The notes beneath the pieces were generated by a model that searched no databases, was not told where the DNA came from, and saw only the letters and a list, made by a program, of their open reading frames with translations. Below, piece after piece: positions 2,862 through 50,913 of a stretch of DNA of 64,000 nt. How positions within the stretch are numbered: the first letter of the stretch is position 1; the number at the start of each line of letters is the position of its first letter. The translations under genes were made by a program, and so were the position numbers. The DNA comes from Bacteroidales bacterium (GTDB lineage Bacteria > Bacteroidota > Bacteroidia > Bacteroidales > Muribaculaceae), in the NCBI GenBank assembly GCA_014800815.1, contig JAAVFI010000028.1, forward strand, positions 1 through 64,000, in the 5' to 3' direction.

Positions 2862-2890
2862 AGCTACAAACAAATGGAATGAACCGCGAA

Positions 2891-32561: not shown

Positions 32562-33338
32562 TTATAGTTTCTTAACGTAAATCATCTTTTTAGTTACTCC
32601 CCACACCAAGTTATTTAAAGTCAGGATACAAGCCAGCAGATGGTTTGCAGATTCGGCAACTCTAAACAAACGATAGTGCCATTTTATGAGAGATAAGTAA
32701 CTTGAATTACTTGTCGAGCCTTCTCTTTTTCGATATTTTGCCAGATTCTCGGGAAGAAGATAGCAATCAGATTTTCTAATTACTTTCAACCACATAGCGT
32801 AGTCATTATTTTTCTGCAGCGCCGGGATAGATATAGTGCCGACGGTATCCCTCTCGTACATGACCGTCAGACAACCGGGCCAACAATAAGAAAACATACC
32901 GACTTTAGAAATTTTTGAAGGACCGGTGACCAAGCGGCCTCTCGGATTATCATGTTCATCTATTTCCTCATATTGCGTATATGAGAATTTGATCCCATGC
33001 TCCTTCATGAATCGGATTTGCTTTTCTAACTTATTTTCCACCCATAGATCGTCGCTGTCAAGGAAGGCTATATAGTGCCCCGAGGCTAAACTCAGAGCAT
33101 GATTTCGAGCAATTGCGGTTCCTGATTTAGAATCCAGTTTAAAATACTTTATTCTGGAATCCCGCTGTACGAAATCCTTTACAATTTCTTTAGTTTCATC
33201 TGAAGAACAATCATCTACAATTAAAAGCTCCCAATTTGTATAAGTTTGTCTTAGTACACATTCAATGGTTCTCCCTATGAACGAAGCACAATTATACGTA
33301 GGTGTAATTATGCTCACTAAATCTGTGGAGGAGTTCAT
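32562..33338 (-). CDS. GT2-family glycosyltransferase
   Basis: A 258-residue GT-A fold inverting glycosyltransferase. It opens with VSIITPTYNCASFIGRTIE and LLIVDDCSSDET for nucleotide binding, has the metal-binding LDSDDLW (~92-98), and a likely catalytic region around KNNDYAMWLKV (~175). The C-terminal ~30 residues are hydrophobic and basic, possibly a membrane association site. It should add one sugar to the lipid-linked capsule repeat. It is separated by 44 bases from the upstream acetyltransferase. Donor and acceptor are unknown. Confidence 0.9.
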   Translation of the reverse strand: MNSSTDLVSIITPTYNCASFIGRTIECVLRQTYTNWELLIVDDCSSDETKEIVKDFVQRDSRIKYFKLDSKSGTAIARNHALSLASGHYIAFLDSDDLWVENKLEKQIRFMKEHGIKFSYTQYEEIDEHDNPRGRLVTGPSKISKVGMFSYCWPGCLTVMYERDTVGTISIPALQKNNDYAMWLKVIRKSDCYLLPENLAKYRKREGSTSNSSYLSLIKWHYRLFRVAESANHLLACILTLNNLVWGVTKKMIYVKKL

Positions 33339-33382
33339 GGTGGATTTATATTTGATTCCTATTATTGTGACAGAATGAATTT

Positions 33383-33907
33383 TTAATTAAACTTTCCTTC
33401 TGCCAACAAATGATTAAAATGGTCTATATCCCTATATTTAATAACTTTTGCGGGGTTTCCGCCAACAATGGCAAAATCAGGAACATCTTTTACCACAACA
33501 GAACCCATTGCGACTATCGCTCCTGTGCCGATGTGTATATTCCCTGAGATCGTAACGTCGGTGCCTAACCATACAAAGTCTCCTATTGAAACCGATTTAC
33601 AGGTATCTTTCTTTCCATAAGGTATTGCATCGCCGCCGTCATAGTCATGAGAGCCAAGCATTATCTTACAGTTTTGCCCGGAGTGGAAATACCTGCCAAT
33701 CTCCACTTTGCCACGGCCAAGTACTCTAAGCCCATTGCTGTGGAAGTGATCCCCGACAGAAACTTCAGCCGCGCTGCTGATAGGGCAGAAACACGATACA
33801 CCGATCTTTTCGCCGGAAGATTTGCACTGATATCTAAATATTCTTGACCAGAATCTGCCACGAATCTTACGATACAAGGACAGGCATGAATAGATTAACT
33901 TTCTCAT
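33383..33907 (-). CDS. Hexapeptide-repeat O-acetyltransferase (WbbJ/maltose acetyltransferase type)
   Basis: A 174-residue left-handed beta-helix acyltransferase. Hexapeptide turns run from ~50 to ~155 (VEIGRYFHSGQNCKIMLGSH; VSIGDFVWLGTDVTISGN; IHIGTGAIVAMGSVV), ending in the NPAKVIK signature. The acetyl-CoA-dependent modification of a capsule sugar hydroxyl is the likely role. It overlaps the upstream putative glycosyltransferase by four bases. The acceptor sugar is not known. Confidence 0.85.
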   Translation of the reverse strand: MRKLIYSCLSLYRKIRGRFWSRIFRYQCKSSGEKIGVSCFCPISSAAEVSVGDHFHSNGLRVLGRGKVEIGRYFHSGQNCKIMLGSHDYDGGDAIPYGKKDTCKSVSIGDFVWLGTDVTISGNIHIGTGAIVAMGSVVVKDVPDFAIVGGNPAKVIKYRDIDHFNHLLAEGKFN

Positions 33908-35043
33908 TGTAACTGCGAGAGATACACCACGTCTTTGCTAAGAAGGACATACCCCAACTCTGATAGGCGTGTAAAATTTTCAGGAAAATTCATATCGTCA
34001 ATTACGACGTTTACACCTGCATGATAGCACTGATTCAATACCGTAGTATATACTCCAACGGCGTATTTCAGATTTGATATTGAAGTTTCAATATCTACCT
34101 CTCGCTGATACTCTATCATACTTTCATCGACATACTTTTTCAGCAATTGAATATCGCTGTATCTCGGGTGAGGACGATATTTCAGAGAGGCTCCCTGACG
34201 GGAGATGAATTCAAGACTCTTTACAATAGACTGTAATTCTTCCTCGGTATACTTTGCCAAATAATATTTATAATCGGCATAAGCGTCAGAGTTCCGGTGC
34301 TCGGAGGGATTAACCGACATAAATGGGGGGAGTTCAGCCACAAACTGTTCTCTCGGAGCCCTTAAGTCAGACAGAAGTTTTATATAGTAGTCTTCCCATA
34401 CGTAGGTCTTTGAAAACCTGAAGAATGAGTCTCTTACATAATACAACTTCTCGCCATGCATTACATTGATGTGCTCTACTCCATTCGACTCACAAAAATA
34501 TGTCAAGGCTGAACTTGTATATGAATATTCATTATAGACTATGATTGCATCAGGCCTATAAAGTTTTATCAACTGGGAATATAAGCCAACCTTGTATAAT
34601 ATCTTGAAGACAAAATAAGGTGAACGAATCAGATAAGGAGAAAGTCTGAGCACGAATCCCAAGTCTCTGAAGGACAGTGAAAATCCGGAGGACCACTCTT
34701 CTGTACTTATTTTATACTTCTTTGCAACAGAGTCTGGAACCACACCCTGATGTCCGCTCTTCTCAAGAATTGCCTCAACTTTATAGCGATATCGCGAACG
34801 AATACGCTTAATAAATGCCACTAAAATATACAATGGCAATACAAATAAGGCTATAAAGTTGAATACGAGACGCTTCCACCGGCTGACAAAGAGCATCTGC
34901 GCTTTATATTGGTAAAACGAGCGCGAGATATCATGCTTTGGCTCAGGAAGTCTCCTGATAAACTCCAACTGTTCGGCAACAGGGATATCAAACTGCCACT
35001 TATCTCCCTTTGCCAAAAGATTCATTATTTTATTATAATTCAT
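33904..35043 (-). CDS. Putative GT-B glycosyltransferase, candidate nonulosonate (sialyl-type) transferase
   Basis: A 379-residue protein without a confident family. A hydrophobic segment lies at ~60-78. The second half looks like a GT-B enzyme: INVMHGEKLYY (~193-203), the basic RPHPRYS (~297) and YTTVLNQCYHAG (~335). The HP and Ser/Thr motifs recall the pattern shared by bacterial sialyltransferase families. As the same operon encodes a full CMP-nonulosonate activation step, this is my best candidate for the enzyme that adds that sugar. It overlaps the N-terminal half of the split GT4 by 11 bases. The assignment is inference; another capsule transferase activity is possible. Confidence 0.55.
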   Translation of the reverse strand: MNYNKIMNLLAKGDKWQFDIPVAEQLEFIRRLPEPKHDISRSFYQYKAQMLFVSRWKRLVFNFIALFVLPLYILVAFIKRIRSRYRYKVEAILEKSGHQGVVPDSVAKKYKISTEEWSSGFSLSFRDLGFVLRLSPYLIRSPYFVFKILYKVGLYSQLIKLYRPDAIIVYNEYSYTSSALTYFCESNGVEHINVMHGEKLYYVRDSFFRFSKTYVWEDYYIKLLSDLRAPREQFVAELPPFMSVNPSEHRNSDAYADYKYYLAKYTEEELQSIVKSLEFISRQGASLKYRPHPRYSDIQLLKKYVDESMIEYQREVDIETSISNLKYAVGVYTTVLNQCYHAGVNVVIDDMNFPENFTRLSELGYVLLSKDVVYLSQLQ

Positions 35044-35641
35044 TCTTCGATAGTCGGTTTATGAATTGTTCGGCGGTTTCCTTATTTCCTGTGCTTATAA
35101 AGTTGACATGGTAATCGTTGTCCGCCGCATCTTTAAGAAAATCTCGTTCGTATTGCTTCAGTGAGTCATGCAAGCGAACTTCATCGGTAAAGCTCACAAG
35201 CCCATGCAGTGTAACAAGAAATGGTACTGCCATATCTCTACATACGTCAATTGTAGCCGCTGTTATAGGTGTACATCCATGTATATGGACTAAATCGTAG
35301 CCGGTGACAGTCTTACGAAATCTACTGAGAGCACAGAACTGGTATATCGTCCTAAGTTTTGTCGAAAGCGGCACAGGATATTTTTTGATGAATTCCAATG
35401 CAGCTCTGAATTGCTTCATTGAAAACGATGAGAAGAACTGTGCCCAATTGTTTTTCAATACGTTGAAAGTTCCAAGTCGCATGGCCGGAGCCATTGAGTT
35501 TACGGCAAAAACATCCACTTGAGCATCCTCTCCGATATGGGAGGCCATATCGTGTACCATGTAGCCAAATCCCGTCTTATTCCTCATAAAGGCGGGATGC
35601 GCCGGACATGTTATGTAGGGTGTGACAAGCAAAACCTTCAT
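35033..35641 (-). CDS. GT4 glycosyltransferase, N-terminal (acceptor) domain encoded as a separate gene
   Basis: A 202-residue protein that matches only the first Rossmann-like half of a GT-B glycosyltransferase: MKVLLVTPYIT at the start, YDLVHIHGCTPITA (~114-127) and VPFLVTLHGLVSF (~137-149). It ends at ISTGNKETAEQFINRLSKNEL, where an intact GT4 would cross into its second domain. The second domain is encoded by the gene just upstream in the operon (35638-36258), in reversed order. The ATG overlaps that gene's stop by four bases (ATGA), so equal synthesis is likely. Alone it should be inactive because it lacks the nucleotide-sugar site. Confidence 0.8.
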   Translation of the reverse strand: MKVLLVTPYITCPAHPAFMRNKTGFGYMVHDMASHIGEDAQVDVFAVNSMAPAMRLGTFNVLKNNWAQFFSSFSMKQFRAALEFIKKYPVPLSTKLRTIYQFCALSRFRKTVTGYDLVHIHGCTPITAATIDVCRDMAVPFLVTLHGLVSFTDEVRLHDSLKQYERDFLKDAADNDYHVNFISTGNKETAEQFINRLSKNEL

Positions 35642-36258
35642 TTTCCTAAAATCTCTTTATATAGATTGAGATAGCCCCTCTTCATGCTGTCGTATCCAAA
35701 GTTGGTTGCGAAGGCTTCAATCTTTTCAGAATCCCATGTCTTGCGCATACACTCTGTCATCCCCTGCATCAGAGCTTCATCGCTTCGCTCCCCGACTCCA
35801 ACAGCACTATCTGAATTGCATATATCCCTGAATGCAGGGAGGTCGCAGAACGTCACTGCAGGCTTGCCATATACATATCCCTCTACTATAGATAGTCCGA
35901 AACCTTCTGACAGGCTGGTGAGTATCGTCGCATCAGCATCAATATAGCAGTTGTGAACCTCTTTCTTGTCTACCGGGCCGGCAACGATCATATTTTCGCT
36001 TAATCCTCGCAAGGATATATATTCTTGTAACGAGTCGAAGTCTCCGCCACCAACAAAGAGGACCTTGACATTCTTACGGATTTCCGAAGGCATCAATGCA
36101 AGGGCTTCAACAACTTGTCGCTGATTCTTATTCGGATTTACATTGCCGACAAAAACGAACAAAAAGTCATTCTTATCGATGCCGTATCGTTCTCTGACAG
36201 AGTAGTCTCTATCCTTTCGCTGAATATCACTGCCGTTAAGGACTACGGAGAAGGGCAT
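35638..36258 (-). CDS. GT4 glycosyltransferase, C-terminal (donor-binding) domain encoded as a separate gene
   Basis: A 206-residue protein equal to the second half of a GT4 enzyme. It begins MPFSVVLNGSDI, the interdomain point of intact homologues, then has FLFVFVGNVNPNKNQ (~33-47), VKVLFVGGG and the nucleotide-sugar signature LSEGFGLSIVEGYVYGKP (~116-133) with the E-x7-E-like arrangement. A stop codon lies two codons upstream of its ATG, so it is not the tail of a longer frame here. It precedes the N-terminal-domain gene, the opposite of the natural domain order. The two proteins probably form one heterodimeric transferase. Confidence 0.82.
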   Translation of the reverse strand: MPFSVVLNGSDIQRKDRDYSVRERYGIDKNDFLFVFVGNVNPNKNQRQVVEALALMPSEIRKNVKVLFVGGGDFDSLQEYISLRGLSENMIVAGPVDKKEVHNCYIDADATILTSLSEGFGLSIVEGYVYGKPAVTFCDLPAFRDICNSDSAVGVGERSDEALMQGMTECMRKTWDSEKIEAFATNFGYDSMKRGYLNLYKEILGK

Positions 36259-36261
36259 AAT

Positions 36262-37077
36262 TTATCTATACGTATTTAGAATCTTAGAGACAGTGGCAGG
36301 CTCTGCACCTTTTGGAAGCGCATAGTCCATAACAAAACTTCTCAAGGTCTCGAGCTCATCGGGATTGTCACGAAGATGCCAATAGTGGACATTTATGACC
36401 AACGGGAGGTTGTGCTTGATGCAATAATCAAACATCCTTCTGAGATATGCTCCGGATTGCAAAAGACAAGCGTTAACCTCAAGATGATCAGAATACTTCA
36501 GGACTCCGGGCCATGGAATGTTATTTATAAATCTATGCCACCACCGGAATGCGTAGTTATAGAGATTCTTTACCGAAAGTCTTCGGGAAAATTCCAACGG
36601 AACAATTCCTGAAAAGTCCATACCATTAGCAACAACAGCATCAAGACATCTTTTCGAGATCTTATTACTTGGAGCAACAAAGCACTTGATCGAATAATCA
36701 AGATTATCTTCAAGTTGCTTCTTATACCGTGCAATCTCCTGAGCTAAAGTTGGTTGAGCATCTCTCCACTGCATTTCCGCCAAACGTCGGTCGCCGGCAA
36801 ATCTGTAATCATGGTTTATACCATGATGCAGTACATCAGCTTTGTTTTGCTCCAATCTATCTCTCAGCCAGTTTGTCAATTCTGAGTTCTCTATAAACAA
36901 TCTGGGTTCAGTATTTCCCGCAGTATCAGGGCAAGCTCTTTTCGTAGAAACATCCTTCACTGCAGGGATCACCGCAAAAGAAATCGGGAAATCGTTGAAA
37001 TCCTTGTAGACCGCCTGAATATCTTCTACTTTTGTGAAGAAATTCATATCATCGTCCCTTATTGCCAATTGTATCAC
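36262..37077 (-). CDS. Polysaccharide deacetylase-like protein (CE4 superfamily, DUF2334-like)
   Basis: A 271-residue NodB-fold protein. The start codon is GTG at 37077; it is favoured because the metal motif RDDD begins only seven residues in, and the GTG overlaps the flippase stop by four bases. Motif 1 is IRDDDMN, motif 2 is HHGINHDYR (~89-97) and motif 3 is CFVAPSNKIS (~141-150), matching the metal-binding Asp and two His of CE4/DUF2334 enzymes. It may deacetylate an N-acetylated sugar of the capsule. No signal peptide is present, so a cytosolic or lipid-linked substrate is expected. Confidence 0.72.
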   Translation of the reverse strand: MIQLAIRDDDMNFFTKVEDIQAVYKDFNDFPISFAVIPAVKDVSTKRACPDTAGNTEPRLFIENSELTNWLRDRLEQNKADVLHHGINHDYRFAGDRRLAEMQWRDAQPTLAQEIARYKKQLEDNLDYSIKCFVAPSNKISKRCLDAVVANGMDFSGIVPLEFSRRLSVKNLYNYAFRWWHRFINNIPWPGVLKYSDHLEVNACLLQSGAYLRRMFDYCIKHNLPLVINVHYWHLRDNPDELETLRSFVMDYALPKGAEPATVSKILNTYR

Positions 37078-38585
37078 TTCCGTAATCCTTTAATAAGTTC
37101 TACCCATATCCCCGGACGTATACACAGCAAGGATAGTATATAAACTACTCCAAATGCTATACAGCAAATAAAGGTATATATCCAAGTATTAAGGTCTGAT
37201 GAAAAATGCTTTACGACGATTGTAAACAAGGCTGCGATAAGTGTGCACGGAAGAATCTTCCATGTATTACTCTTGAGCAAATTCACTTTAATCTCTGAAT
37301 ATCGACGTAGCAGTCGAAACAAAAGTCCCATAGAAATAACTATCGCCGTGACAGATGTCGAAATTGCCAAGCCTTGAACACCAAGTACAAATGGAAGAGA
37401 AACATTCAGAACTATATTTAAAATGAATCCGATGCTTGCATTAATCGCCGGTGTTTTGGTATCCTTTAATGAGTAAAATACTTTGGTTAGAGATTCTCTG
37501 AATCCCATAAAAATCAAGCCAATACTATACCAGCCTAATAAAATCTGGGTACGCTCTACAGCTTCGGCATCGAACGCACCTCTGGCAAAAGCAATCTCTA
37601 TAATTTCTTTCTTCAGACACAGAATCAGAGCTGTAAGAGGCATAAGGAACAGCACATACGCCGCTAAGGTTTTGTTAATTCTGATATTTAGACCCGTCAT
37701 ATCATTTTTTGCAGTTGAGTCTGCATACAACGGATATATAATTGTAGCGATTGCAGAGGTAAACAGTGAGATAAACATACTGTTGATTTTTGAAGCATAA
37801 CTCAGCACCGCTATAGAGCCGACAAAAAGAAATGAGGCAACAATCTTATTGATCATAGCCGTAACTTCGGCAAGACTCGTGCTCCATATCACAGGAACAG
37901 ACATCTTAAGAGACTTCCGTACATGGGCATTCCTCAAGTCAAACATAAAGCGGAATTGCACATGCTTATTGAATAAAACAAGCAGATATGCGAGTTCAAT
38001 ACAGCATCCGATAAGTTGACCGACGGCAGCAGCGAAGATTCCGTAATGTGAATGCAGAAACAGTATTGATAATATGACTGTAGTATTCAAGAACAAAACT
38101 GCAATGGAAGGCCATATAAACTTACCATGAACATTAAGTACTGAGATACAAATATTGGAAACTATTGTACACAATATTGTAGGACACATTATCCTGAGCA
38201 ACTGCGCCGCCAAGAAATTTGTTTCCGGAGAGAATCCTGGTGCAAAAACCAATATTACATACTTGGCAAAGATAAATATCAAGCCAATAAGAGCCAACGC
38301 AAATATTGACAATGTACTTATTAATGCATTGATATATACCTTGCTTTCCTCTACTCCGACATTATGCTTTATGTCGGTATATACAGGGATTACTATCGAC
38401 CTCAAAGCCACCGCAACAAAGGCAAATAGTATCACGGGGATCTGGAGGGCTATAGTATATGCGTCTATCGCAGCCCCGGCTCCGAAGAAGTTGGCCAAAA
38501 CGGATTCTTTGATGAAGGATACGGCGTATCCGACACAAAGAATAAATGTCACTCCAAACGACGTCTTTATTAAATTTGATTTCAT
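37074..38585 (-). CDS. MurJ/Wzx-type lipid-linked oligosaccharide flippase
   Basis: A 503-residue polytopic membrane protein of the MOP superfamily, with about 12-14 hydrophobic helices. It opens with SFIKESVLANFFGAGAAIDAY, the hallmark of MurJ/MviN-like flippases, and contains VFYSLKDTKTPAINA (~370-384). In a capsule operon it should flip the finished undecaprenyl-linked repeat unit to the periplasm. MurJ itself normally sits elsewhere in the genome, so this is a dedicated Wzx-like relative. It overlaps its neighbours by four bases on each side. Confidence 0.88.
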   Translation of the reverse strand: MKSNLIKTSFGVTFILCVGYAVSFIKESVLANFFGAGAAIDAYTIALQIPVILFAFVAVALRSIVIPVYTDIKHNVGVEESKVYINALISTLSIFALALIGLIFIFAKYVILVFAPGFSPETNFLAAQLLRIMCPTILCTIVSNICISVLNVHGKFIWPSIAVLFLNTTVILSILFLHSHYGIFAAAVGQLIGCCIELAYLLVLFNKHVQFRFMFDLRNAHVRKSLKMSVPVIWSTSLAEVTAMINKIVASFLFVGSIAVLSYASKINSMFISLFTSAIATIIYPLYADSTAKNDMTGLNIRINKTLAAYVLFLMPLTALILCLKKEIIEIAFARGAFDAEAVERTQILLGWYSIGLIFMGFRESLTKVFYSLKDTKTPAINASIGFILNIVLNVSLPFVLGVQGLAISTSVTAIVISMGLLFRLLRRYSEIKVNLLKSNTWKILPCTLIAALFTIVVKHFSSDLNTWIYTFICCIAFGVVYILSLLCIRPGIWVELIKGLRK

Positions 38586-39778
38586 CGGATATGGAGCAGG
38601 CTTTTAATACGATCAATAAAAAATGACATCTGTGTAGGTGGTGCGTATGCAGCCCTCACCTCTTCAAAGTCGTGGGATAAATAGAAACCTGAAAAATTAT
38701 GCATATTTTCGGCTTCTTTCATTCGCAAATCGTACGGGCGTTTTTCAACAAGACCTTTCAGATATTTCACAGCCTTATCAATATCAACTTTGATTGATGT
38801 AGCGTCCAAAGATTCCAGAATGTTTTTCCCTGCTGATGTATTAATAATTACGGCCGACACCCCCTTTGTTGTATCAGTTCCTGACAGCACATTCTGCACC
38901 CCCCAGAAATCTCCGATAGTTATATCTGAAAATCTGTGTAAGGTCCGATATCTGCAATCAAGGCAGGTTTCATTAAGAATATAATGCTTACCAAACCAAT
39001 AATGGAAGAGGTTGAATACGCTCCTTTGATTTATCTTCTTACCATTATCAAATTGCATGGCTACACGAAGGTTGGGCGTACCGTTTTTCCGCTCCCACCC
39101 GTGACTTTTATCTCTGAAATTATAGGCAACGAGTTTTGAGTTATTCGTCTTTTGGAGATAGTTTAAATAGTCCTTCCATACCATAGGAGAATTCACTCCA
39201 TGACAAATAATATCGACAGTCAAGAGATTTTGCCGATTATGGGCAGGACACATTTTAACAAGACCGGCGACTTGGCAAGGAGTTCCGATGAAAAGAATCT
39301 TTTCGCCATTCTTCAGACGTCCGATAATTTCTCTAAGAACGCCATTGGTGCTGCTCTGCAAATATTTGGATTGACTAAATTTTCTTATATCAGACAGCTC
39401 TTTTGACACTTGATGCTTCAGATTCCAATTCGAGTCAAATAATGCTCCGCAAACAGCAAATCCCTCAGAGATAGCCCATTGTGCTATTGCAGTACCGATA
39501 CCTCCTGACGTTGATGTCGCTCTGGTGGTATCGTCATTGCACCAGGCGGCATAGCATTCACGGGAATACTCATCTTCTGACTGAGTAATAGGATTCAGCT
39601 CGGGACAAGTCCTTACACATAGCCCGCACTTAATGCAAACATCCTCGTCTATTTTGGGAAACTTCTGAAGAGTCCCAAAACTATCAAAGGAGATACATTG
39701 TTTCGGGCAAATATCAGCACACGCGGAACATGATGTACACTTATTCCTCCCGGCAAGCTCAATCTTTCCTGTCTGCAT
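38582..39778 (-). CDS. FrhB-like (coenzyme F420 hydrogenase beta-type) Fe-S protein, copy 2
   Basis: A 398-residue cytosolic protein with two [4Fe-4S] ferredoxin motifs at the N-terminus (CTSCSACADICP ~15-26 and CIKCGLCVRTCP ~48-59), then FrhB N- and C-terminal domains (~80-380) with FIGTPCQVAGLV. In methanogens such domains bind F420 and flavin; in bacteria the F420 link is unlikely and the reaction is unknown. It overlaps by 20 bases the pyruvyltransferase-like gene 39759-40886, and the same pairing occurs at 42046-44461. The pairing suggests that the two proteins act together on a capsule sugar. Confidence 0.85.
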   Translation of the reverse strand: MQTGKIELAGRNKCTSCSACADICPKQCISFDSFGTLQKFPKIDEDVCIKCGLCVRTCPELNPITQSEDEYSRECYAAWCNDDTTRATSTSGGIGTAIAQWAISEGFAVCGALFDSNWNLKHQVSKELSDIRKFSQSKYLQSSTNGVLREIIGRLKNGEKILFIGTPCQVAGLVKMCPAHNRQNLLTVDIICHGVNSPMVWKDYLNYLQKTNNSKLVAYNFRDKSHGWERKNGTPNLRVAMQFDNGKKINQRSVFNLFHYWFGKHYILNETCLDCRYRTLHRFSDITIGDFWGVQNVLSGTDTTKGVSAVIINTSAGKNILESLDATSIKVDIDKAVKYLKGLVEKRPYDLRMKEAENMHNFSGFYLSHDFEEVRAAYAPPTQMSFFIDRIKSLLHIR

Positions 39779-40886
39779 AAATGGAATTCAATAAAAAGTC
39801 CTTTGAGTAGTCAATGAATGCATCGCCTTGAGCAACTTTACTGTAATCAGTCTTCAGTTGCTCCACCGAAAGCGTATTCAACTTCTCCTGATTTAAGATG
39901 ACATCTATACCGAAGATGTCTTCCAACTGAACAAGACGTTCATTGGCTATATGTTTAGGCACAAACTTAAAGTTACGTCTGTAGATTATTGAGAATGCCG
40001 AACAATGAAATGAATTCGTACATACATACGATGCATTTGAAATCAATCCGACGAACTCCGCAGGGTCTGCATCCTTAATCACGATGTCGCTATTGAACTT
40101 ATCTAAAGCGTTTAGATTCAGATGCACAACCTTAAAGCCGGTGAGTTGCCTCAATTTTTTCACTGCTTCTACAGCCATTTGGCTAACACTCAGGAAGTAA
40201 CAGAATATGTATGGTTCCTCGATGTGTGGGTTGACTTTAATATCATCCCAATCCTCTTTGCGAAGAAGAAATACGGGGTCGCAAACGACCGTCGCCTTTT
40301 CGTCCACTAATACGGAATTTACACAATGTAAGTTGCCCTTTTCGCGGATTGACACACAATCGAAGTCTCTGATATACGGAGCAATAGTTTCAGACTGAGC
40401 TTCAGTCCAGTCATCGGCTATACTTGCTGCATACGAAATCTTACGCGGGTTATTCTTAGTAAAATCCAAAAAATACGTGAGATCGCATCTGTAGTTGAAA
40501 TTCCAGATCTGATCACTACCCACAATGAAGGCATCTGCTTCAGGAGGATTTGATATAATATCTTTCCTGGAATATTTGCGTTTTGTGAGAGGGATATATT
40601 TCTCTATAAACTTCCTGACCTTTGCCTGCTTCTTTCTAATTCTCAATAAATCTTTAACACAGACTATCTGGTAAGCCAATTTTGCGACATCCCTGAGAGT
40701 TCTGGGTTTGTGGAAAATAGTCCAACTACGATTATGGCCTACCGGAAGATATTGCAATACCTCACATTCAACGTTTTTTTGTCCGTTTAGAAATTTACTC
40801 AATGCATAACATTGGAGAAGGGCTCCCATGTTATTGGCATACTGAGTAGTGAGAGTCAGAATTTTTATCTTATTACTTTTTGCCAT
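39759..40886 (-). CDS. Polysaccharide pyruvyl transferase family protein, copy 2
   Basis: A 375-residue GT-B-like protein of the CsaB/WcaK pyruvyltransferase family. It starts KILTLTTQYANNMGALLQCY and has FIVGSDQIWN (~135-144) and CTNSFHCSAFS (~285-295), the family signatures. Members transfer pyruvate from phosphoenolpyruvate to make ketals on polysaccharides, but Bacteroides paralogues paired with FrhB-like proteins have not been clearly assigned. It overlaps the polymerase gene by 22 bases. It is distant in sequence from copy 1 but shares the motif order. Confidence 0.83.
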   Translation of the reverse strand: MAKSNKIKILTLTTQYANNMGALLQCYALSKFLNGQKNVECEVLQYLPVGHNRSWTIFHKPRTLRDVAKLAYQIVCVKDLLRIRKKQAKVRKFIEKYIPLTKRKYSRKDIISNPPEADAFIVGSDQIWNFNYRCDLTYFLDFTKNNPRKISYAASIADDWTEAQSETIAPYIRDFDCVSIREKGNLHCVNSVLVDEKATVVCDPVFLLRKEDWDDIKVNPHIEEPYIFCYFLSVSQMAVEAVKKLRQLTGFKVVHLNLNALDKFNSDIVIKDADPAEFVGLISNASYVCTNSFHCSAFSIIYRRNFKFVPKHIANERLVQLEDIFGIDVILNQEKLNTLSVEQLKTDYSKVAQGDAFIDYSKDFLLNSIYADRKD

Positions 40887-42049
40887 CGAGTAAGCCGTTG
40901 TGTTATATAGTTTCTGTTTATATATGAGTAGAGAAAGATTAATTGGTAGGCAAAAGTACTGCTACCAAAACTTATACTTTGGAATGACATAGCTATAATC
41001 AATACTACTACATAGGGAAGAGTGGTTCGGTCAGCCCGGATAAACGACAAGTACATCGTCAGCAATATTGCAAGACCGAAAATACCATATTTTGCCCAAG
41101 TGAGCCAAAATGTAGGTACGAAGGCTCCTCTACCAAGCAGTGGTACATGACGCATATATGCAAAGTCTTCTACATTTGGAGCTTTAAAGCCGAGTATCAA
41201 TTCTCCCGCATCCATAGACTCAAACAAGTAAATACCGTTCATCAATCGGATATTTGACTCAATGTCGGTATTTTCAATCTTGTTTATTCCGGCTTCAAAA
41301 TATGAAGATTTCACCAATGCGAATGCAAGACCTATGCCCAAGACCACCACCATAATCCTTGTTCTCATCTTAACCTTCTGTGACATCAGGTAGAGTGCCA
41401 GGATTATGAATGACATGAGAATACCTGTTGATGATGTTGACAGGAACATTGATAGTATAATGATTCCGCTCCAAACATAAGTCTTCCGTAACAGCGATAT
41501 AAAAAGCGGCACCATAAGGAATGTCACAAAAGATGCCGGCTCCCAGAAGAATGACGTAGGTCGGACCACTTCTTCGTAAAGTCGCGTAGTGGCGTCCATA
41601 GCAGGCATAAACGGCAATTTAAGAGGGGTTACAATTCCGCCTGCAAATACTATCATGGCTTGATAGACGAGACCTCCGATTGTCATTATTGCCACCCAAT
41701 TGAGCGAGCCCGCAAACTTCTCAAAATTTATAGCCCGGCATATAGGCAATATGCTTATCGAAATCAAAGCAATACTTATGGTATTATTTAAGAAATAACC
41801 GGGAACGGGAATAAGGAGCATTAAGAAAAACTCATGTACAAGTACAAATGCAATCAGGACATTGAGCCATAAAGTCTTAAAATGCTTTCTTTTCTTGAAT
41901 AATGCCCAAACAGCCAATATGAGAATAAAGATGATATTACCATGAAGGGGCCCATACGAATATCCGGACAATATAGGATAGAGAGCTGCAAAAAGCTCAA
42001 ACGCCCCTACCTTTTGAAGTTGTAAATATCTGAATATCCTTTTTATCAT
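40865..42049 (-). CDS. O-antigen/capsule polymerase-like membrane protein (Wzy-type)
   Basis: A 394-residue polytopic protein with about 10-11 hydrophobic segments and a larger periplasmic loop (~255-300). The loop contains EDFAYMRHVPLLGRGAF, and a helix with FFWEPASFVTFLMVPL (~168-183) precedes it. This is the pattern of Wzy polymerases, which have little sequence conservation. It lies between the two pyruvyltransferase/FrhB pairs and is the only polymerase candidate in the operon. Assignment rests on topology and location. Confidence 0.75.
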   Translation of the reverse strand: MIKRIFRYLQLQKVGAFELFAALYPILSGYSYGPLHGNIIFILILAVWALFKKRKHFKTLWLNVLIAFVLVHEFFLMLLIPVPGYFLNNTISIALISISILPICRAINFEKFAGSLNWVAIMTIGGLVYQAMIVFAGGIVTPLKLPFMPAMDATTRLYEEVVRPTSFFWEPASFVTFLMVPLFISLLRKTYVWSGIIILSMFLSTSSTGILMSFIILALYLMSQKVKMRTRIMVVVLGIGLAFALVKSSYFEAGINKIENTDIESNIRLMNGIYLFESMDAGELILGFKAPNVEDFAYMRHVPLLGRGAFVPTFWLTWAKYGIFGLAILLTMYLSFIRADRTTLPYVVVLIIAMSFQSISFGSSTFAYQLIFLYSYINRNYITQRLTRWQKVIR

Positions 42050-44477: not shown

Positions 44478-45518
44478 TCACTTCATGTGTTTTATGAGTT
44501 CCTGTGCTTTCCTATATTCTTCGGGAGTGCCAATATCGATCCAAAGGCTCGACAGCGGGTATCTGATTACTGTCTGATTTTCATTCACTAAAGCCTCTAT
44601 TAAATCTGTTGCGTTGAATACCTCTCCCTCCGGTATATATGCCAGCGCCTCCTTGCGTATAAGGTAAATGCCGGCATTGGCATATAAATTGTACACCGGT
44701 TTTTCGGAAACGCCTTTGATATTTCGTCCGTCCAAATCAAATATACCATAAGGTATTGATATAGTATACGGTATGGCGGCTGCCGACATCATCGCTCCAT
44801 TTTCCATGAAGTGCAGGTAGAAGTCCTCATAATCAATATTGGTCAACAAATCTGAATTCATTACCAATATTGTATCGTTATGGAATTCTTTAACCAGTCT
44901 AAGGGAGCCTATAGTTCCTAAGAAGCATTCTTCTTCTACACATTGCACCTTAATCCCTCCGGTGGCTGGTTCACAGAAATGCTCTATCAATTGTTCTTTA
45001 AGATAGTTGACAGTCACAGAAATATTACTTACGCCATAGGCTATCAGAGAATCAATATTCTGATCAATAATAGCTTTACCACCCATCTTAAGAAGTGGTT
45101 TGGGCGTTTTGAGAGTGAGAGGCCGAAGTCTTTCGCCCTTACCTCCGGCCATTAGAACGGCATCGACGGGCAAACAAGACTTCCTCTTGGTCAAATCTAT
45201 GACGTCTATTATTTCGTTAGCATCATTAAGATGAGGGACGAGTGTGATGCCTTTCGACCTTATATCTTTTAGAATCGCAATATCAAAGACACCCTTGATA
45301 AATGAGAAGTTTTTGTGCATTACATCCGACACCGGGGTAGATAGTTCAGCGCCTGAGATGAGAGCCCTTCGTATGTCTCCGTCTGTTATGGTGCCCACCA
45401 TACGCCTATTGTCATTCACGACAAAAAGCGTCATAGGTTGAGAATGTAACTTATTTAAAGTTATTAAAGCCTCTATAATAGCTTGATTCTCATTTATGAT
45501 ATAGCGATCGTAACTCAT
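44478..45518 (-). CDS. CBS-domain nucleotidyltransferase (PtmE-like, GlcN/GlcNAc-1-P guanylyltransferase candidate)
   Basis: A 346-residue protein with a CBS pair (~5-115; VGTITDGDIRRALI) joined to a sugar nucleotidyltransferase domain (~118-345; VLMAGGKGERLRPLTLKTPKPLL, FLGTIGSLRLV, NSDLLTNIDYEDF). In Campylobacter the same architecture (PtmE) makes the GDP-glucosamine-type precursor of legionaminic acid, and this gene overlaps the CMP-nonulosonate synthetase by four bases. That supports a legionaminic-type rather than a Neu5Ac product, although the nucleotide cannot be read from sequence. The CBS pair may sense an adenine nucleotide. Confidence 0.82.
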   Translation of the reverse strand: MSYDRYIINENQAIIEALITLNKLHSQPMTLFVVNDNRRMVGTITDGDIRRALISGAELSTPVSDVMHKNFSFIKGVFDIAILKDIRSKGITLVPHLNDANEIIDVIDLTKRKSCLPVDAVLMAGGKGERLRPLTLKTPKPLLKMGGKAIIDQNIDSLIAYGVSNISVTVNYLKEQLIEHFCEPATGGIKVQCVEEECFLGTIGSLRLVKEFHNDTILVMNSDLLTNIDYEDFYLHFMENGAMMSAAAIPYTISIPYGIFDLDGRNIKGVSEKPVYNLYANAGIYLIRKEALAYIPEGEVFNATDLIEALVNENQTVIRYPLSSLWIDIGTPEEYRKAQELIKHMK

Positions 45519-46204
45519 ACCATTTCCTCAGACAATAATAGTTCTGCTATCTTCCAATCAAAGAGGGTATCCAAATCTAATGAATGCAATTCATCCATTT
45601 CATATTTACGGATTCTTTTAAATTCTGATAACTTACTACGTTTAAGAGAGTCCGGATTTATAACGTACACGGCCCCATTGTATTCCCACGCTTTCGGTGC
45701 ATCTTGTCGACGACAATATTCTCCGGAGCCCTTTGAAATTTTAAGAAAGCCTTCACTGTTTTCCTCGAAACAATTGTAGTAAGGATTGGAAGATGCCGGC
45801 TTAACGCTTACAACCATGTCGATATCCGATGAATACAGCGATAATGCTCTCTTCAAATCTTCATTTTGTCTGAAAGGTGATGTAGGTTGAAGCAGAATTA
45901 TCGCATCATATTTAATACCCTTACTTTCATAGAAACTCAGGGCATGAAGAAGTACTTCGTAAGTACCTGCTGTATCTGAAGCGAGTTCGGGCGGTCGTAC
46001 GAAAGGAACTTTCAGACCATATTTCTCGACAACTTCTATTATTTCAGCAGAATCCGTCGTTACGCATATATCCGCATCATCAACAATGGCTCTGGCATTA
46101 TCTATCGCATAGCATATCAACGGTTTGTCACCTAAACGCTTGATATTCTTATGCGGAATACCTTTGCTACCTCCTCGAGCCGGTATTATGCACAATATCT
46201 TCAT
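45515..46204 (-). CDS. neuA/legF-like: Acylneuraminate/legionaminate cytidylyltransferase (CMP-nonulosonate synthetase)
   Basis: A 229-residue NeuA-family enzyme that activates a nonulosonic acid with CTP. The CTP loop IIPARGGSKGIPHKNIK is at residues ~6-22, with LLQPTSPFR (~103-111) and the metal-binding FDWKIAELLL near the end (~216). It overlaps genes by four bases on both sides. Family members that act on sialic, legionaminic and pseudaminic acids share these motifs, so the sugar is inferred from neighbours. Confidence 0.9.
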   Translation of the reverse strand: MKILCIIPARGGSKGIPHKNIKRLGDKPLICYAIDNARAIVDDADICVTTDSAEIIEVVEKYGLKVPFVRPPELASDTAGTYEVLLHALSFYESKGIKYDAIILLQPTSPFRQNEDLKRALSLYSSDIDMVVSVKPASSNPYYNCFEENSEGFLKISKGSGEYCRRQDAPKAWEYNGAVYVINPDSLKRSKLSEFKRIRKYEMDELHSLDLDTLFDWKIAELLLSEEMV

Positions 46205-47382
46205 ATTTCAAAACGAATATCGAAAAAACTCTTAGAGGAATATTTTTCTATTTTATATGTTGTGAGAATGTTCACTATATCCCTCAATGTATCGGGACGA
46301 TAATATGGATTATTTCCTTGCTTGCCGACAAAATCAATAAAATCTTTCGACAGCACAGTGCCAAGCCCTTCCAAGATACTATTTCTGTCGGGAGTACAAT
46401 TGATTATGGTATTTCCTTGCGCTCTTCCTTTTTGCCGGTTTCCGACATTAAGAGTAGGAATCCCAAAAGTAGGGGCCTCTATAATACCACTTGAAGAGTT
46501 TCCAATAATTGCTGTAGAATATTTCATGGCAGTATAGAATCTCTTCCGCCCTAACGATTGAACAACAATTACTTTATCTTCTTTATCGGTAGCCCATTCT
46601 TTAATAGCCGCAGCTATCAGGCGACCGTCAGCATCAGAGTTCGGAAGTGTTATCAACAACTTATAATTGTTCAGCACAGTATCAAGCGCTGACAACATCG
46701 CTGCGATTTGCTCCGAAGCATTGCCGGCTTCCATTGTCACAGGATGATAGGTGACGATCAGGAATTTATCACCAAGACTTCGGCCCAGGCTTTCTTCAAG
46801 TTCCGAAAGAGACAATAATGTCTCCTTTTTTATATTATCGACCCCTAAAGCTCCAACATAGAACACTCTTTCCGGACTCTCGCCCATCTGAATCACACGT
46901 TTGCGATATTCTTCTGTCGAAGTAAAATGGAGGTAAGCCATTTTTGAGATTGCATGGCGAATAAAATCGTCATACGCACCTTCTGTAATTTCACCTCCAT
47001 GTAAATGTGCTATAGGAATTCCTAATATGGAGGCAGCCGAGGCTGCCGCTAACATTTCATAGCGGTCGCCCAATATCACCACAATATCAGGAGAAAGTTC
47101 AGAAAGAGCATCAGAAAGACCAATCAAGGCTAAGCCCATCGATTTGACTGTACCAACTGCTGTGTCACTTGACAGCAACATCTCAACTTTTTTGTCGATT
47201 ACAAACCCATCGGCTTCTATCTCCTTATATGTCAACCCATATTCCGGAGAAAGATGCATATTCATGGCAATGATCTGCAGCGTCACATCAGGATGATTCT
47301 TCAGTTCCTTCATCAAAGAACTAAGAATTCCATATTCAGCTCTCGTACCTGTCAGTATGCAAATTTTGCGTCCTGATATCAT
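46201..47382 (-). CDS. neuC/legG-like: Hydrolysing UDP/NDP-HexNAc 2-epimerase (NeuC/LegG-like)
   Basis: A 393-residue GT-B-fold epimerase that releases ManNAc or 2,4-diacetamido-mannose from its nucleotide. Seen are CILTGTRAEYGILSSL (~8-23), VILGDRYEMLAAA (~97-109), IAHLHGGEITEGAYDDFIRH (~120-139) and the GNSSSGIIEAP loop (~292-302). NeuC versus LegG cannot be separated with certainty; the presence of a 4,6-dehydratase and PtmE-like gene favours LegG. It overlaps the synthase by four bases. Confidence 0.9.
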   Translation of the reverse strand: MISGRKICILTGTRAEYGILSSLMKELKNHPDVTLQIIAMNMHLSPEYGLTYKEIEADGFVIDKKVEMLLSSDTAVGTVKSMGLALIGLSDALSELSPDIVVILGDRYEMLAAASAASILGIPIAHLHGGEITEGAYDDFIRHAISKMAYLHFTSTEEYRKRVIQMGESPERVFYVGALGVDNIKKETLLSLSELEESLGRSLGDKFLIVTYHPVTMEAGNASEQIAAMLSALDTVLNNYKLLITLPNSDADGRLIAAAIKEWATDKEDKVIVVQSLGRKRFYTAMKYSTAIIGNSSSGIIEAPTFGIPTLNVGNRQKGRAQGNTIINCTPDRNSILEGLGTVLSKDFIDFVGKQGNNPYYRPDTLRDIVNILTTYKIEKYSSKSFFDIRFEI

Positions 47383-48395
47383 AATTCAATCAGTTCATCG
47401 GCTCCATAAGTACGTTTGGCAACTTTGCCAAGTACTTCATCATACAGCATAGGAGATATACCTGTACCGGGACGTTTTACTGTTATATTATCTTCCGAAA
47501 AAATTTCACCTTCATTGATAGCCCTTGCCGCAACAATACTTTTACGAGCTACTGCAATATTTTTTCGTTCTGAATCTGTTACTCTTTTTTCTGTATGACC
47601 GATAGCTTCTTCTATATGCCTTATAGAATCAACCATGGCCTTGAGTTCTATAGGATCTAATGATGCCACATGATCAGGCCCGGGCAGCGTTTTATCCAGC
47701 GTGAAATGTTTCTCAATAACTGAAGCACCGAGACTAACTGCAGCCAAAGCTACTTCAATACCTTTAGTATGGTCGCTATAACCTATCTTGGTACCAAAGG
47801 CTTTCTTCAAAGTCTCCATTGCCAGCAGATTTACATCGGAATAGGGAGTGGGATACTCTGTATTGCAATGAAGCAAGGTTATATCTTGCGTAGATAAGCC
47901 TCCTTTATACAGCACATCAACGGCTTGCTCCACTTCTCCTAATGTTGACATTCCTGTCGACATTATAACCGGGACATGCAGATTGGCGATTTTCCGCAAA
48001 TATGGAAGATTTGTAATCTCACCAGAAGGTATTTTCATATAGTCCATTCCAATGGACGCAAGAAAATCAACACTGTCAAGATCGAATGGCGTTGACAAAA
48101 ACTTTATTCCTGATTTTTTGCAATAATCATTTAAAGAGACAAAATCCTGAAACGACAGTTCTAATGATTTAAGCATATTCAGCTGAGAATCATCACCGTC
48201 ATTATAAGACGCCAGATTTTTCTTTTGATACTCAGCCTGCGGAGCATATCGGTTAACTATATTTTGGGCCTTAAAAGTCTGGAATTTAATGTAGTCTACA
48301 CCACAGACATTCGCTGTATCAATCATCTTAATGGCTCTGTCATATGAACCATTATGATTTACTCCGGCCTCAGCTATAATTAAAACTCTATCCAT
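47379..48395 (-). CDS. neuB/legI-like: Nonulosonic acid synthase (NeuB/LegI-like)
   Basis: A 338-residue PEP-dependent synthase that condenses an N-acyl-mannosamine-type sugar with phosphoenolpyruvate to form the nine-carbon acid. The TIM barrel (~1-275) contains IAEAGVNHNGSYDRA, FQTFKAQNIV, LSTPFDLDSVDFL and GYSDHTKGI; the antifreeze-like SAF domain (~280-338) carries VKRPGTGISP. These are the standard NeuB signatures, including the region that binds the metal and PEP. The gene abuts the acetyltransferase with no gap. Product (Neu5Ac versus legionaminate) is inferred from neighbours. Confidence 0.93.
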   Translation of the reverse strand: MDRVLIIAEAGVNHNGSYDRAIKMIDTANVCGVDYIKFQTFKAQNIVNRYAPQAEYQKKNLASYNDGDDSQLNMLKSLELSFQDFVSLNDYCKKSGIKFLSTPFDLDSVDFLASIGMDYMKIPSGEITNLPYLRKIANLHVPVIMSTGMSTLGEVEQAVDVLYKGGLSTQDITLLHCNTEYPTPYSDVNLLAMETLKKAFGTKIGYSDHTKGIEVALAAVSLGASVIEKHFTLDKTLPGPDHVASLDPIELKAMVDSIRHIEEAIGHTEKRVTDSERKNIAVARKSIVAARAINEGEIFSEDNITVKRPGTGISPMLYDEVLGKVAKRTYGADELIEL

Positions 48396-49094
48396 TTATC
48401 TGATTCTTTTTGCAGGAATACCCACATAAGTACCCGCAGTTAGAATATTTTCAGTAAGTACACTGCCGGCACCCAGAATTGTTCTGCCTGAAACAGACAA
48501 GCCATTACTTACAATGGCTCCGCTACCGACAAAAACTCCGTTGCCAATACTGCAATCTCCATTTATTAAGGCTCCGGTAGAGATATGGCTGTAGTCACCG
48601 ATTACTGTATCATGCTCTATGCAAGACAATGTATTTACTATACACCCAACGCCTACGGAAGCGCCGGCATTGACACACGCGTTGTGGAGCACCACAGTTC
48701 CTTCTCCGATATGAGCATACCTGGAGACATTAGCGGTAGAGGCTATCACGGTTCCGAATTGTCCTCCACATTCCTTAATGAATTTATGAAGCTCAATCCT
48801 TCTTTCGGGGTTCTTAATAAAGCCAAGGGTAACGACAAAATCGAAGTCTTCAACGAATTTTGGAATGGAATCGTCACTACCGACAAATCTAATTCCGAGG
48901 CATTCATCTCCCAGAAATTCAGGCATATCAATAATACCTGCAATTTCTACTCCGGAGCTATGAGCCGCCTCGATCACCGATTTGCAGTGACCTCCGCCCC
49001 CTACAAGAATCAACGGCCGTTTCACGTTCTCTATCGAGTTTAAGACTTTATTACATCTTTTGATCGAGGTTCTTTCCCTTTTCCTCGTGCACAA
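48396..49094 (-). CDS. neuD-like: NeuD/PglD/LegH-like sugar O- or N-acetyltransferase
   Basis: A 232-residue hexapeptide acyltransferase with an N-terminal Rossmann-like sugar-binding domain (PLILVGGGGHCKSVIEAA ~27-44). A left-handed helix follows (~105-230; IGEGTVVLHNACVNAGASVG; HDTVIGDYSHISTGALINGD). A likely catalytic His is in CIEHDTVIG (~159). The ATG at 49094 overlaps the dehydratase by 44 bases; a GTG at 49025 would give a protein starting just before the Rossmann motif and no overlap, so the start is uncertain. In LegH-type roles it acetylates the C4 amino group made by an aminotransferase, which is not seen here. Confidence 0.85.
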   Translation of the reverse strand: MCTRKRERTSIKRCNKVLNSIENVKRPLILVGGGGHCKSVIEAAHSSGVEIAGIIDMPEFLGDECLGIRFVGSDDSIPKFVEDFDFVVTLGFIKNPERRIELHKFIKECGGQFGTVIASTANVSRYAHIGEGTVVLHNACVNAGASVGVGCIVNTLSCIEHDTVIGDYSHISTGALINGDCSIGNGVFVGSGAIVSNGLSVSGRTILGAGSVLTENILTAGTYVGIPAKRIR

Positions 49095-50253
49095 AATTAG
49101 GTAAGAAATCTTTCAGACACTCCACAACTTGAGCCTTAGTGAAAGTTCTGTCAGAAAATAGCGTCTCCAGAGATTTTATAAATGATTCAACCTCAGCTTT
49201 CTGGCGATGTTCAGATTTTGTAATGACTCCAAGAGCATTAAATCTTTCACAATCCGATTCTTCTCCGTCGACAACAAACTCTTCGAAATCTTTTTCGCCG
49301 GTTGTATCACTGTTGAAATAGAATACAGGGTAGTCTTTACCGGGCAAATTACCTACTGCAAAGGTCTTGGCGTCTGTATCCGATGAGCATTCATGCTTGC
49401 AATAGCCCATTTCACGGACGAAATCATCACATATCGCCGAGAAGGTTTTCATTGATTTTTCCTCCAGTTTAGGGAAAAATACCTCTCCATTATTGCCCAA
49501 TATGCAGGCGAGCATACATATCTGGCCACTCTCTTCCATAGATACAAAATATCTGCGGACGTCTTTAGGTGCTACAAGCGGTTGATTCTTCATCATTCGA
49601 TCAAAGAAACTTGCAGGAAGTGAGCCATTGGAGAATGCTACATTGGCAAATCTGGCTGTCGTAACTTTAAAATTCGAACGATAAGCCATTATAAGGTCCT
49701 CCATAACCCTCTTTGATGCACCCATTACATTTACAGGATTAGCAGCCTTATCTGTGGAGACACAGAAGAAGTGACGGGGAGGAATCTCACAAAGCAAATC
49801 CAAAAGATGCTTTGCCTTAATTATATTGTTTTTAAGTAACGCTTCTACCGAATACTTGTCTTTTTCGCTACGGACGTGCTTATGTGCAGAAAAATTAGCG
49901 ACAATATCGAATCCTCCGTGATCTCTGAATATATCTTCGAATATTGGATCGGCAAAGTCAAGTGTATACGTCAAATATGTTTCAGGCACCTCGATGTCCG
50001 AACTTGAACGAAGATCTCGAGTAAGTTCTGCCAATCCATTCTCATTGAGATCTATAACAACTAACTTGCCAGGACGAAATTTTAGTACGGCTTTAATAAA
50101 TGAGGAACCTATAGAACCGGCACCACCTATAACCAGTACGGATTTACCCTCTATTTCTTTGGTTAATCTGTCGTGATTACGACAGATATCTTCATTAAAC
50201 AGGCTCGTCTCTCGCTCTATTACAAACCGTTTTACAAACTTATCTAAATCCAT
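49051..50253 (-). CDS. legB-like: Nucleotide-HexNAc 4,6-dehydratase (LegB/CapD-like SDR)
   Basis: A 400-residue cytosolic SDR of the Polysacc_synt_2 type. The NAD motif is VLVIGGAGSIGSSFI (~39-53), followed by DLNENGLAEL, FSAHKHVRSEKD (~121-132) and STDKAANPVNVMGASKR (~167-183), the catalytic region of UDP-GlcNAc (or GDP-GlcNAc) 4,6-dehydratases. It lacks the membrane domain of FlaA1/CapD proteins. As first enzyme of the nonulosonate cassette it would give a 4-keto-6-deoxy sugar. It lies right after UpxY (12 bases). A matching aminotransferase is absent from the window. Confidence 0.87.
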   Translation of the reverse strand: MDLDKFVKRFVIERETSLFNEDICRNHDRLTKEIEGKSVLVIGGAGSIGSSFIKAVLKFRPGKLVVIDLNENGLAELTRDLRSSSDIEVPETYLTYTLDFADPIFEDIFRDHGGFDIVANFSAHKHVRSEKDKYSVEALLKNNIIKAKHLLDLLCEIPPRHFFCVSTDKAANPVNVMGASKRVMEDLIMAYRSNFKVTTARFANVAFSNGSLPASFFDRMMKNQPLVAPKDVRRYFVSMEESGQICMLACILGNNGEVFFPKLEEKSMKTFSAICDDFVREMGYCKHECSSDTDAKTFAVGNLPGKDYPVFYFNSDTTGEKDFEEFVVDGEESDCERFNALGVITKSEHRQKAEVESFIKSLETLFSDRTFTKAQVVECLKDFLPNFVHEEKGKNLDQKM

Positions 50254-50265
50254 AATTTTCTATAT

Positions 50266-50859
50266 TCACACCCTCTCCACATCATTCGGGTCGATGGAGA
50301 CCGTGGCGCCGCCTAGCATCGAGATGCTGACGGTGAGGCGGTGGGTGCCGTCGGAATTTTTCATTATTTCGCCTTCGAGGCCTTGGAAGTGGCCGCGGAT
50401 AACTCTCACATTGTCACGGATTTTATATCGGGTCGGCTCGAAATACACGGGGGTGTCTGACTGGCCTAACATAAATTTCAGTCTGCGGATATCGGTGTCG
50501 GGTACGGTGGCGGCGGGGGCGTTGAGGGTGCCGGTGTTGGCGCTCCTGTTGACCATAAACCTGCTGATATATGGCAGTGAGACTATTTCGCGACGCTGCT
50601 TCTCGGTGGTGCGGATGAATACTACCGACGTTATTACGATACGGTCGATCATTTTGCGCTTGCCGTTCTTCCATACATGCATCTCTTTTTGGGAGGCGAC
50701 AAAGCTTTCGTAGCCGAGTTTCTGCAGTTTTTCCGACACGGATTTCTCGTGCCGCGGACCGACTACAGCCACGTACCATTTGGCTTCCGGTAAGCCTACG
50801 GCGCCGTCAGTGCTCAAGGGCTCTGCCGTAACACGATTGGTTATCAATCCTTTAGACAT
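50266..50859 (-). CDS. upxY-like: UpxY-type NusG-like transcription antiterminator
   Basis: The ATG at 50859 is chosen (197 residues); a TTG at 50892 would leave almost no leader after the promoter. The NGN domain (~25-125) contains WYVAVVGPRHEKSVSEKLQKLGYESF, and the KOW domain (~140-195) contains DNVRVIRGHFQGLEGEIM. In Bacteroides, UpxY proteins sit first in capsule operons and prevent early termination in the leader. No UpxZ-like partner gene follows. It probably controls expression of all 19 downstream genes. Confidence 0.92.
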   Translation of the reverse strand: MSKGLITNRVTAEPLSTDGAVGLPEAKWYVAVVGPRHEKSVSEKLQKLGYESFVASQKEMHVWKNGKRKMIDRIVITSVVFIRTTEKQRREIVSLPYISRFMVNRSANTGTLNAPAATVPDTDIRRLKFMLGQSDTPVYFEPTRYKIRDNVRVIRGHFQGLEGEIMKNSDGTHRLTVSISMLGGATVSIDPNDVERV

Positions 50860-50913
50860 TTTTAATATAGTCTCAGTGACAATGGCTGTCAAACAAAATA
50901 TTTATAACTCTCA

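Follow-up and report, generated by a model that had tools for sequence, protein, structure and literature searches.

How does a single glycosyltransferase come to be encoded by two adjacent genes, each holding one of its domains and the two standing in the wrong order? This question is raised by a gene pair in a Muribaculaceae genome (Bacteroidales bacterium, assembly GCA_014800815.1). The pair lies in the first 64,000 nucleotides of contig JAAVFI010000028.1, the whole stretch of DNA that was analysed and is called the window below. The first of the two genes to be transcribed encodes the C-terminal domain of a GT4 enzyme (C-half) and the second the N-terminal domain (N-half). Their positions, together with those of the other features discussed, are collected in Table 1.

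Table 1. Coordinates of the split gene pair, its junctions and surroundings, and of the phage-type split pairs (window positions unless a locus is named)
Feature	Position	Strand	Basis or remark
C-half gene, GT4 donor-binding (C-terminal) domain, 206 aa	35638..36258	minus	complete ORF, PF00534
N-half gene, GT4 acceptor-binding (N-terminal) domain, 202 aa	35033..35641	minus	complete ORF, PF13439
ATGA overlap, C-half stop / N-half start	35638..35641	minus	ORF ends
11-base overlap, N-half / ORF379	35033..35043	minus	N-half stop and last residues E-L read from first codons of ORF379
3-base gap, DUF2334 gene stop to C-half start	36259..36261	minus	ORF ends
Upstream gene, DUF2334 / polysaccharide-deacetylase-like	36262..37077	minus	PF10096, E 2e-7
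ORF379, gene downstream of N-half	33904..35043	minus	no Pfam or NCBIfam match
Nonulosonic-acid gene set, same minus-strand run	44478..50892	minus	UpxY-family antiterminator, dehydratase, NeuD-type acetyltransferase, NeuB, NeuC, CMP-sugar-synthetase-like, CBS-nucleotidyltransferase
UpxY-family antiterminator	50266-50892	minus	above cut-off
Phage-type split pair	L041:2355-2885 and 2893-3879		same places in L037, L039, L040, L047
Phage-type split pair	L046:2234-2815 and 2887-3873
Phage-type split pair	L056:1409-1981 and 1992-2900

The C-half protein starts with MPFSVVLNGSD, contains SEGFGLSIVEG and carries a C-terminal helix. It matched PF00534, the C-terminal domain of GT4 enzymes, with an E value of 9.9e-26 and 90.7 bits for a Pfam cut-off of 26.4. 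The N-half protein, which begins with MKVLLVTPYIT and ends with NRLSKNEL, matched the GT4 N-terminal domain PF13439 with an E value of 3.3e-7 and 30.9 bits, narrowly above the Pfam cut-off of 28.5, and no NCBIfam model matched it at E ≤ 0.001. The stretch EGFGLSIVE of the C-half, in which both glutamates are invariant in all five rows of the alignment, is the E-x7-E motif of retaining GT-B enzymes. Whereas a GT4 enzyme usually has both domains on one chain, N before C, they are here encoded by two ORFs, C before N. We classify the pair as a split variant of a GT4 glycosyltransferase (GT-B fold), as predicted from its genes. The sequence-only reading had described two genes of 206 and 202 codons at these positions, in the order C then N and with a four-base ATGA overlap, and examination of the ORFs agreed with it in every respect. 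It had also denied that the pair is one frameshifted gene; the order C then N indeed rules out a frameshift or a sequencing error in a single gene.

Relatives of the N-half were detected at E ≤ 1e-5 in five of the 393 genomes of the order, its own included. In the four others they are intact proteins with the domains in the order N then C (L012, L013, L014 and L015, of 410, 410, 429 and 420 aa). In all four genomes the best match of the C-half was the gene of this same N-half relative, with E values of 3.6e-39 to 1.2e-26, and the next C-half match in each had an E value of 1.8e-7 or weaker. The N-half covers residues 1-200 of L012 and 1-195 of L013, and the C-half residues 208-409 and 206-410, respectively. 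Origin of the halves from different GT families or different parents is ruled out, the same intact gene matching both in each of the four genomes. Whether one intact homologue covers both halves had been proposed as a check, and L012 to L015 all do so.

Identity to L012, L013, L014 and L015 is 27, 28, 28 and 21% for the N-half and 35, 34, 32 and 34% for the C-half. The corresponding N/C ratios are 0.78, 0.82, 0.86 and 0.61, for a range of 0.72-1.11 within the intact four; three of them fall inside this range, and the ratio to L015 (0.61) below it. The four intact relatives share 26 invariant residues in the N-domain, of which the N-half retains 20, and 38 in the C-domain, of which the C-half retains 31. 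In a leave-one-out control, where each intact relative was scored against the invariants of the other three, the values ran from 26/27 to 26/42 (N) and from 38/40 to 38/53 (C), L014 and L015 both being favoured in it by their mutual identity of 61-68%. Sequence comparison supports the descent of both genes from one intact GT4 gene, which was split at the interdomain point and had its order reversed. The intact enzymes, which are the best match of both halves, differ from the window pair in being single chains of 410-429 aa with N then C, instead of two chains. A scan of genome contigs gave two further weak matches to the N-half, L010 (ORF of 404 aa) and L011 (380 aa); the C-half matched L011 only.

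The junctions were then compared with the intact form. At the ATGA junction the natural C-end of the enzyme is joined to its natural N-start, and the new ends are located inside the old linker. The overlap likely couples translation of the C-half and the N-half. Linker length was measured from the last invariant glycine of the N-domain to the first invariant asparagine of the C-domain, which gave 21, 20, 21 and 21 residues in L012, L013, L014 and L015. In the window halves it is 17 + 7 = 24 residues, or 21 when the start methionine and the E and L read from ORF379 are subtracted. ORF379 starts near the starts of its four relatives, closest to that of L033, and its start was therefore taken as natural. 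With 21 residues as compared to 20-21, the linker was cut without loss, so that the breakpoints abut. The features of a circular permutation (natural ends joined, new ends internal, both pieces complete) are found at the gene level only, the chains being unfused. No direct or inverted repeats of at least 12 bases were found at the breakpoints; one 13-nt repeat pair lies inside the N-half. The C-half is in the same frame as the preceding DUF2334 gene, with only a stop and one codon between them (36258-36262, minus), a coincidence of frame that is probably due to chance (1 in 3).

Could the arrangement be an artefact, the true gene being an intact N-C gene and the contig misjoined? The genome (2.77 Mb, 99.89% complete) is assembled in 79 contigs and the arrangement was seen once, as a misjoin would have it. 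However, a misjoin is unlikely to leave an ATG three bases past the upstream stop, an ATGA junction and a stop inside the start of the next gene. In addition, PF13439 has 15 matches in the genome: 14 fall in long open frames (360-558 aa), and the N-half is the only one in a short frame (207 aa). We consider such an error very improbable. No close intact paralogue or relic was found: elsewhere in the genome the C-half has at best a match of just 26% identity (E 2.9e-8), and among window ORFs of at least 100 aa only the two halves match the half profiles.

Beyond this genome, the enzyme is patchy and rare. At E ≤ 1e-5 the N-half family was present in one of 49 genomes of the genus, its own, and in none of the other 48. 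At E ≤ 1e-10, a threshold at which remote relatives could be missed, it was again found only in its own genome among 397 of the taxonomic family and 345 of the phylum. Searches of the families of G587, G517, G560 (with G720) and G718 at E ≤ 1e-8 gave 1/45, 1/8, 2/5 and 0/18 genomes, all of them already known. These genome sets overlap, and the order, family and phylum samples were drawn from larger groups. No second swapped-order case appeared among the searched genomes of the genus, family, order and phylum and of the relatives' families, nor was a colinear (N then C) split of the same enzyme found among the genomes searched. The N-half profile had no match in viral contigs; against plasmids the N-half gave one weak match (23.8% identity) and the window stretch 33000-38600 none. 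Among the outcomes named beforehand as counting against the sequence-only reading, one was that the halves match different GT families, which is not the case. Another was that the arrangement is unique to one assembly and absent from reads; the first part of this holds so far, no second genome having been found among those searched.

This restriction to a single genome, with no N-half homologue elsewhere in the genus (48 further genomes searched, E ≤ 1e-5), would also be expected if the rearrangement had destroyed the activity and the pieces were young pseudogenes caught before decay. Against this, both frames are whole, start and stop signals are fitted to the neighbouring genes at all three junctions, and the majority of conserved residues has been retained. 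We judge a broken enzyme unlikely.

AlphaFold models were obtained for the separate halves. That of the C-half, from an alignment of seven rows, is of fair confidence (mean pLDDT 78.9, pTM 0.80) and ends in a helix at residues 189-204. That of the N-half, from three rows only, is of low confidence (pLDDT 58.6, pTM 0.61); strands and helices alternate in it and its last 20 residues fall below 50. The C-half profile aligned with residues 172-375 of the 379 of the GT4 enzyme BshA (PDB 5d00), and the intact relative L013 with residues 79-374. The N-half sequence matched no PDB sequence at E ≤ 1, and its profile gave one unconvincing match (E 0.63) and did not reach 5d00 at E ≤ 1. BshA resembles the C-half in its GT4 domain, but it is a single chain acting on another substrate and a remote relative.

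The pair belongs to a long minus-strand run which also holds a nonulosonic-acid gene set (Table 1). NeuB, NeuC, the NeuD-type acetyltransferase and UpxY all scored above their cut-offs, the CMP-sugar-synthetase-like protein and the PseB-like dehydratase both under those of NCBIfam. We take the gene set to belong to a legionaminic-type pathway, and the locus looks like a capsule-type polysaccharide locus for a nonulosonic acid of this type. Nonulosonic-acid genes also stand near the intact relatives, five in L029, five in L030 and four in L032, L031 having only a CMP-sugar-synthetase-like gene. ORF379 has relatives in four other genomes (of 393), all four beside nonulosonic-acid genes. In G587 this relative directly precedes the intact GT4 gene; in G718 it retains the acetyltransferase neighbour of the window, with no relative of the split GT4 there. 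ORF379 is a putative sugar transferase, perhaps of an unrecognised nonulosonic-acid transferase family. A stretch HGEKLxxxRD(S/T)FF is present in four of five sequences and altered in L030. Elsewhere in the window there is a two-gene module, present twice (38582-40886 and 42046-44461, minus), in which the gene of an FrhB/FdhB-like iron-sulphur protein comes after that of a polysaccharide pyruvyl transferase. The twin modules, one typed by Pfam and the other by its matches to the same relatives, flank a gene without family match (40865-42049).

Split GT4 genes were also encountered in phages. Six of the 15 IMG/VR loci that have a C-half relative (L037, L039, L040, L041, L046 and L047) carry another GT4 as a colinear pair, the N gene ahead of the C gene, and so does Microcystis phage Mel-JY01 (WWT39373 and WWT39374). 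This other GT4 is whole in L050 (513 aa) and in Flavobacterium phage immuto (480 aa). The cut is again at the interdomain linker, the L041 halves covering residues 19-183 and 192-509 of L050. Of two phage N-pieces scanned against PF13439, one matched weakly (E 0.0017, below cut-off) and the other not at all, and the identity of the N-domain therefore rests on the intact forms. By simple Nei-Gojobori counts, made on four of the six loci and saturated in both halves for the three pairs with L046, dN/dS between L041 and L039 was 0.083 (N-half) and 0.143 (C-half). Purifying selection thus seems to act on both halves in the phages, and a two-chain GT4 that works is plausible on this account. The phage genes resemble the window pair in being cut at the interdomain linker into adjacent genes, with intact forms in relatives. 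They differ from it in that the N gene comes first, the C-half is longer, the C-domain is only remotely similar and the genomes are those of phages.

By what route could the order have been reversed? One possibility is that fission came first, giving colinear N then C genes that were later reshuffled, or that the gene was excised as a circle and opened at the linker. The absence of net loss at the linker fits this route, as do the colinear split GT4 pairs of phages and the variable gene order between the loci compared, although no colinear split of the same enzyme was met in the genomes searched. We give it somewhat less than an even chance. The sequence-only reading had suggested instead that tandem copies lost their outer halves. 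A tandem duplication with an ATGA junction, in which the first copy then lost its N-domain and the second its C-domain, would indeed leave a natural C-end joined to a natural N-start. Moreover, the intact gene of G587 has four-base overlaps on both sides (L029, 8063-8066 and 9292-9295), from which slippage could yield a tandem. On the other hand, there is no further match to either half's profile among the window ORFs of at least 100 aa, no repeat of 12 bases or more at the breakpoints and no duplicated intermediate among the four relatives found. This route also needs two independent deletions to meet at the same residue, though selection could impose this if it favoured a functional pair. 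The ATGA part of that proposal stands, while the exact fit of the breakpoints is explained at least as well otherwise, and we keep duplication only as a tentative option. Taken by itself, the breakpoint fit leans slightly towards fission and shuffling, or an opened circle, over tandem duplication.

Whatever the route, we consider it reasonably probable that an intact GT4 gene, cut at its linker and reversed in order, now gives a two-chain GT-B transferase through coupled translation. The ancestor would have been an intact GT4 gene of the GT-B fold from nonulosonic-acid polysaccharide loci, cut between its domains and with its pieces reversed. Translation of the C-domain would end at the TGA and restart at the overlapping ATG, which would yield the two chains next to each other. 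The C-terminal helix of GT-B enzymes lies against the N-domain; the ends joined in the pair would therefore be close together, and the swapped order sterically natural. The two chains may then pair over the old interdomain face, aided by this helix, and rebuild the cleft with the donor sugar nucleotide on the C-chain and the acceptor on the N-chain. So paired, they would add one sugar to the polysaccharide repeat unit. A more far-reaching interpretation, to which we incline by a little, is that this natural two-chain GT4 of swapped order represents a circular permutation at its fission stage, within a living polysaccharide locus. Translation would be coupled through the joined ends, and a single re-fusion would separate the pair from a permuted C-N GT4.

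GT4 is a very large family in bacterial surface-sugar loci. Literature searches, which covered a minority of the subscription journals, listed nothing that names a split, swapped or permuted GT4. Circular permutants of PimA have reportedly been made in the laboratory; the literature search found none, and no argument is drawn from them here. Split GT-B enzymes as such are already known, to which the split with swapped order would add a case in the GT4 family. For annotation, such pairs look like two truncated glycosyltransferases and are easily taken for pseudogenes. The fission-and-fusion model of circular permutation (PMC3320104) predicts a split intermediate; if the window pair works, it would be a direct example of one.

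The closest known systems are Alg13/Alg14 and the bacterial EpsE/EpsF, the latter functioning in exopolysaccharide synthesis. According to two sources (PMC8993221, PMC4973528), these are MurG-related split transferases made of a donor-side and an acceptor-side chain and cut between the domains. Entamoeba and Dictyostelium have reverse-order fusions of Alg13-14 (PMC8993221), which suggests that, in a related fold, little depends on the order of the domains. Neither half of the window pair matched a GT28 or Alg14 Pfam model up to E 0.1, and the comparison with Alg13/Alg14 drawn from the sequence earlier is sound as an analogy. If the pair works, it shows that a GT4 enzyme, of a family other than that of Alg13/Alg14, needs neither a covalent link between its domains nor their usual order. 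The window pair is like Alg13/Alg14 and EpsE/EpsF in the interdomain division of a GT-B enzyme. These belong, however, to another family, of the GT28 type, whereas the window halves are GT4 domains and a single split standing beside intact relatives.
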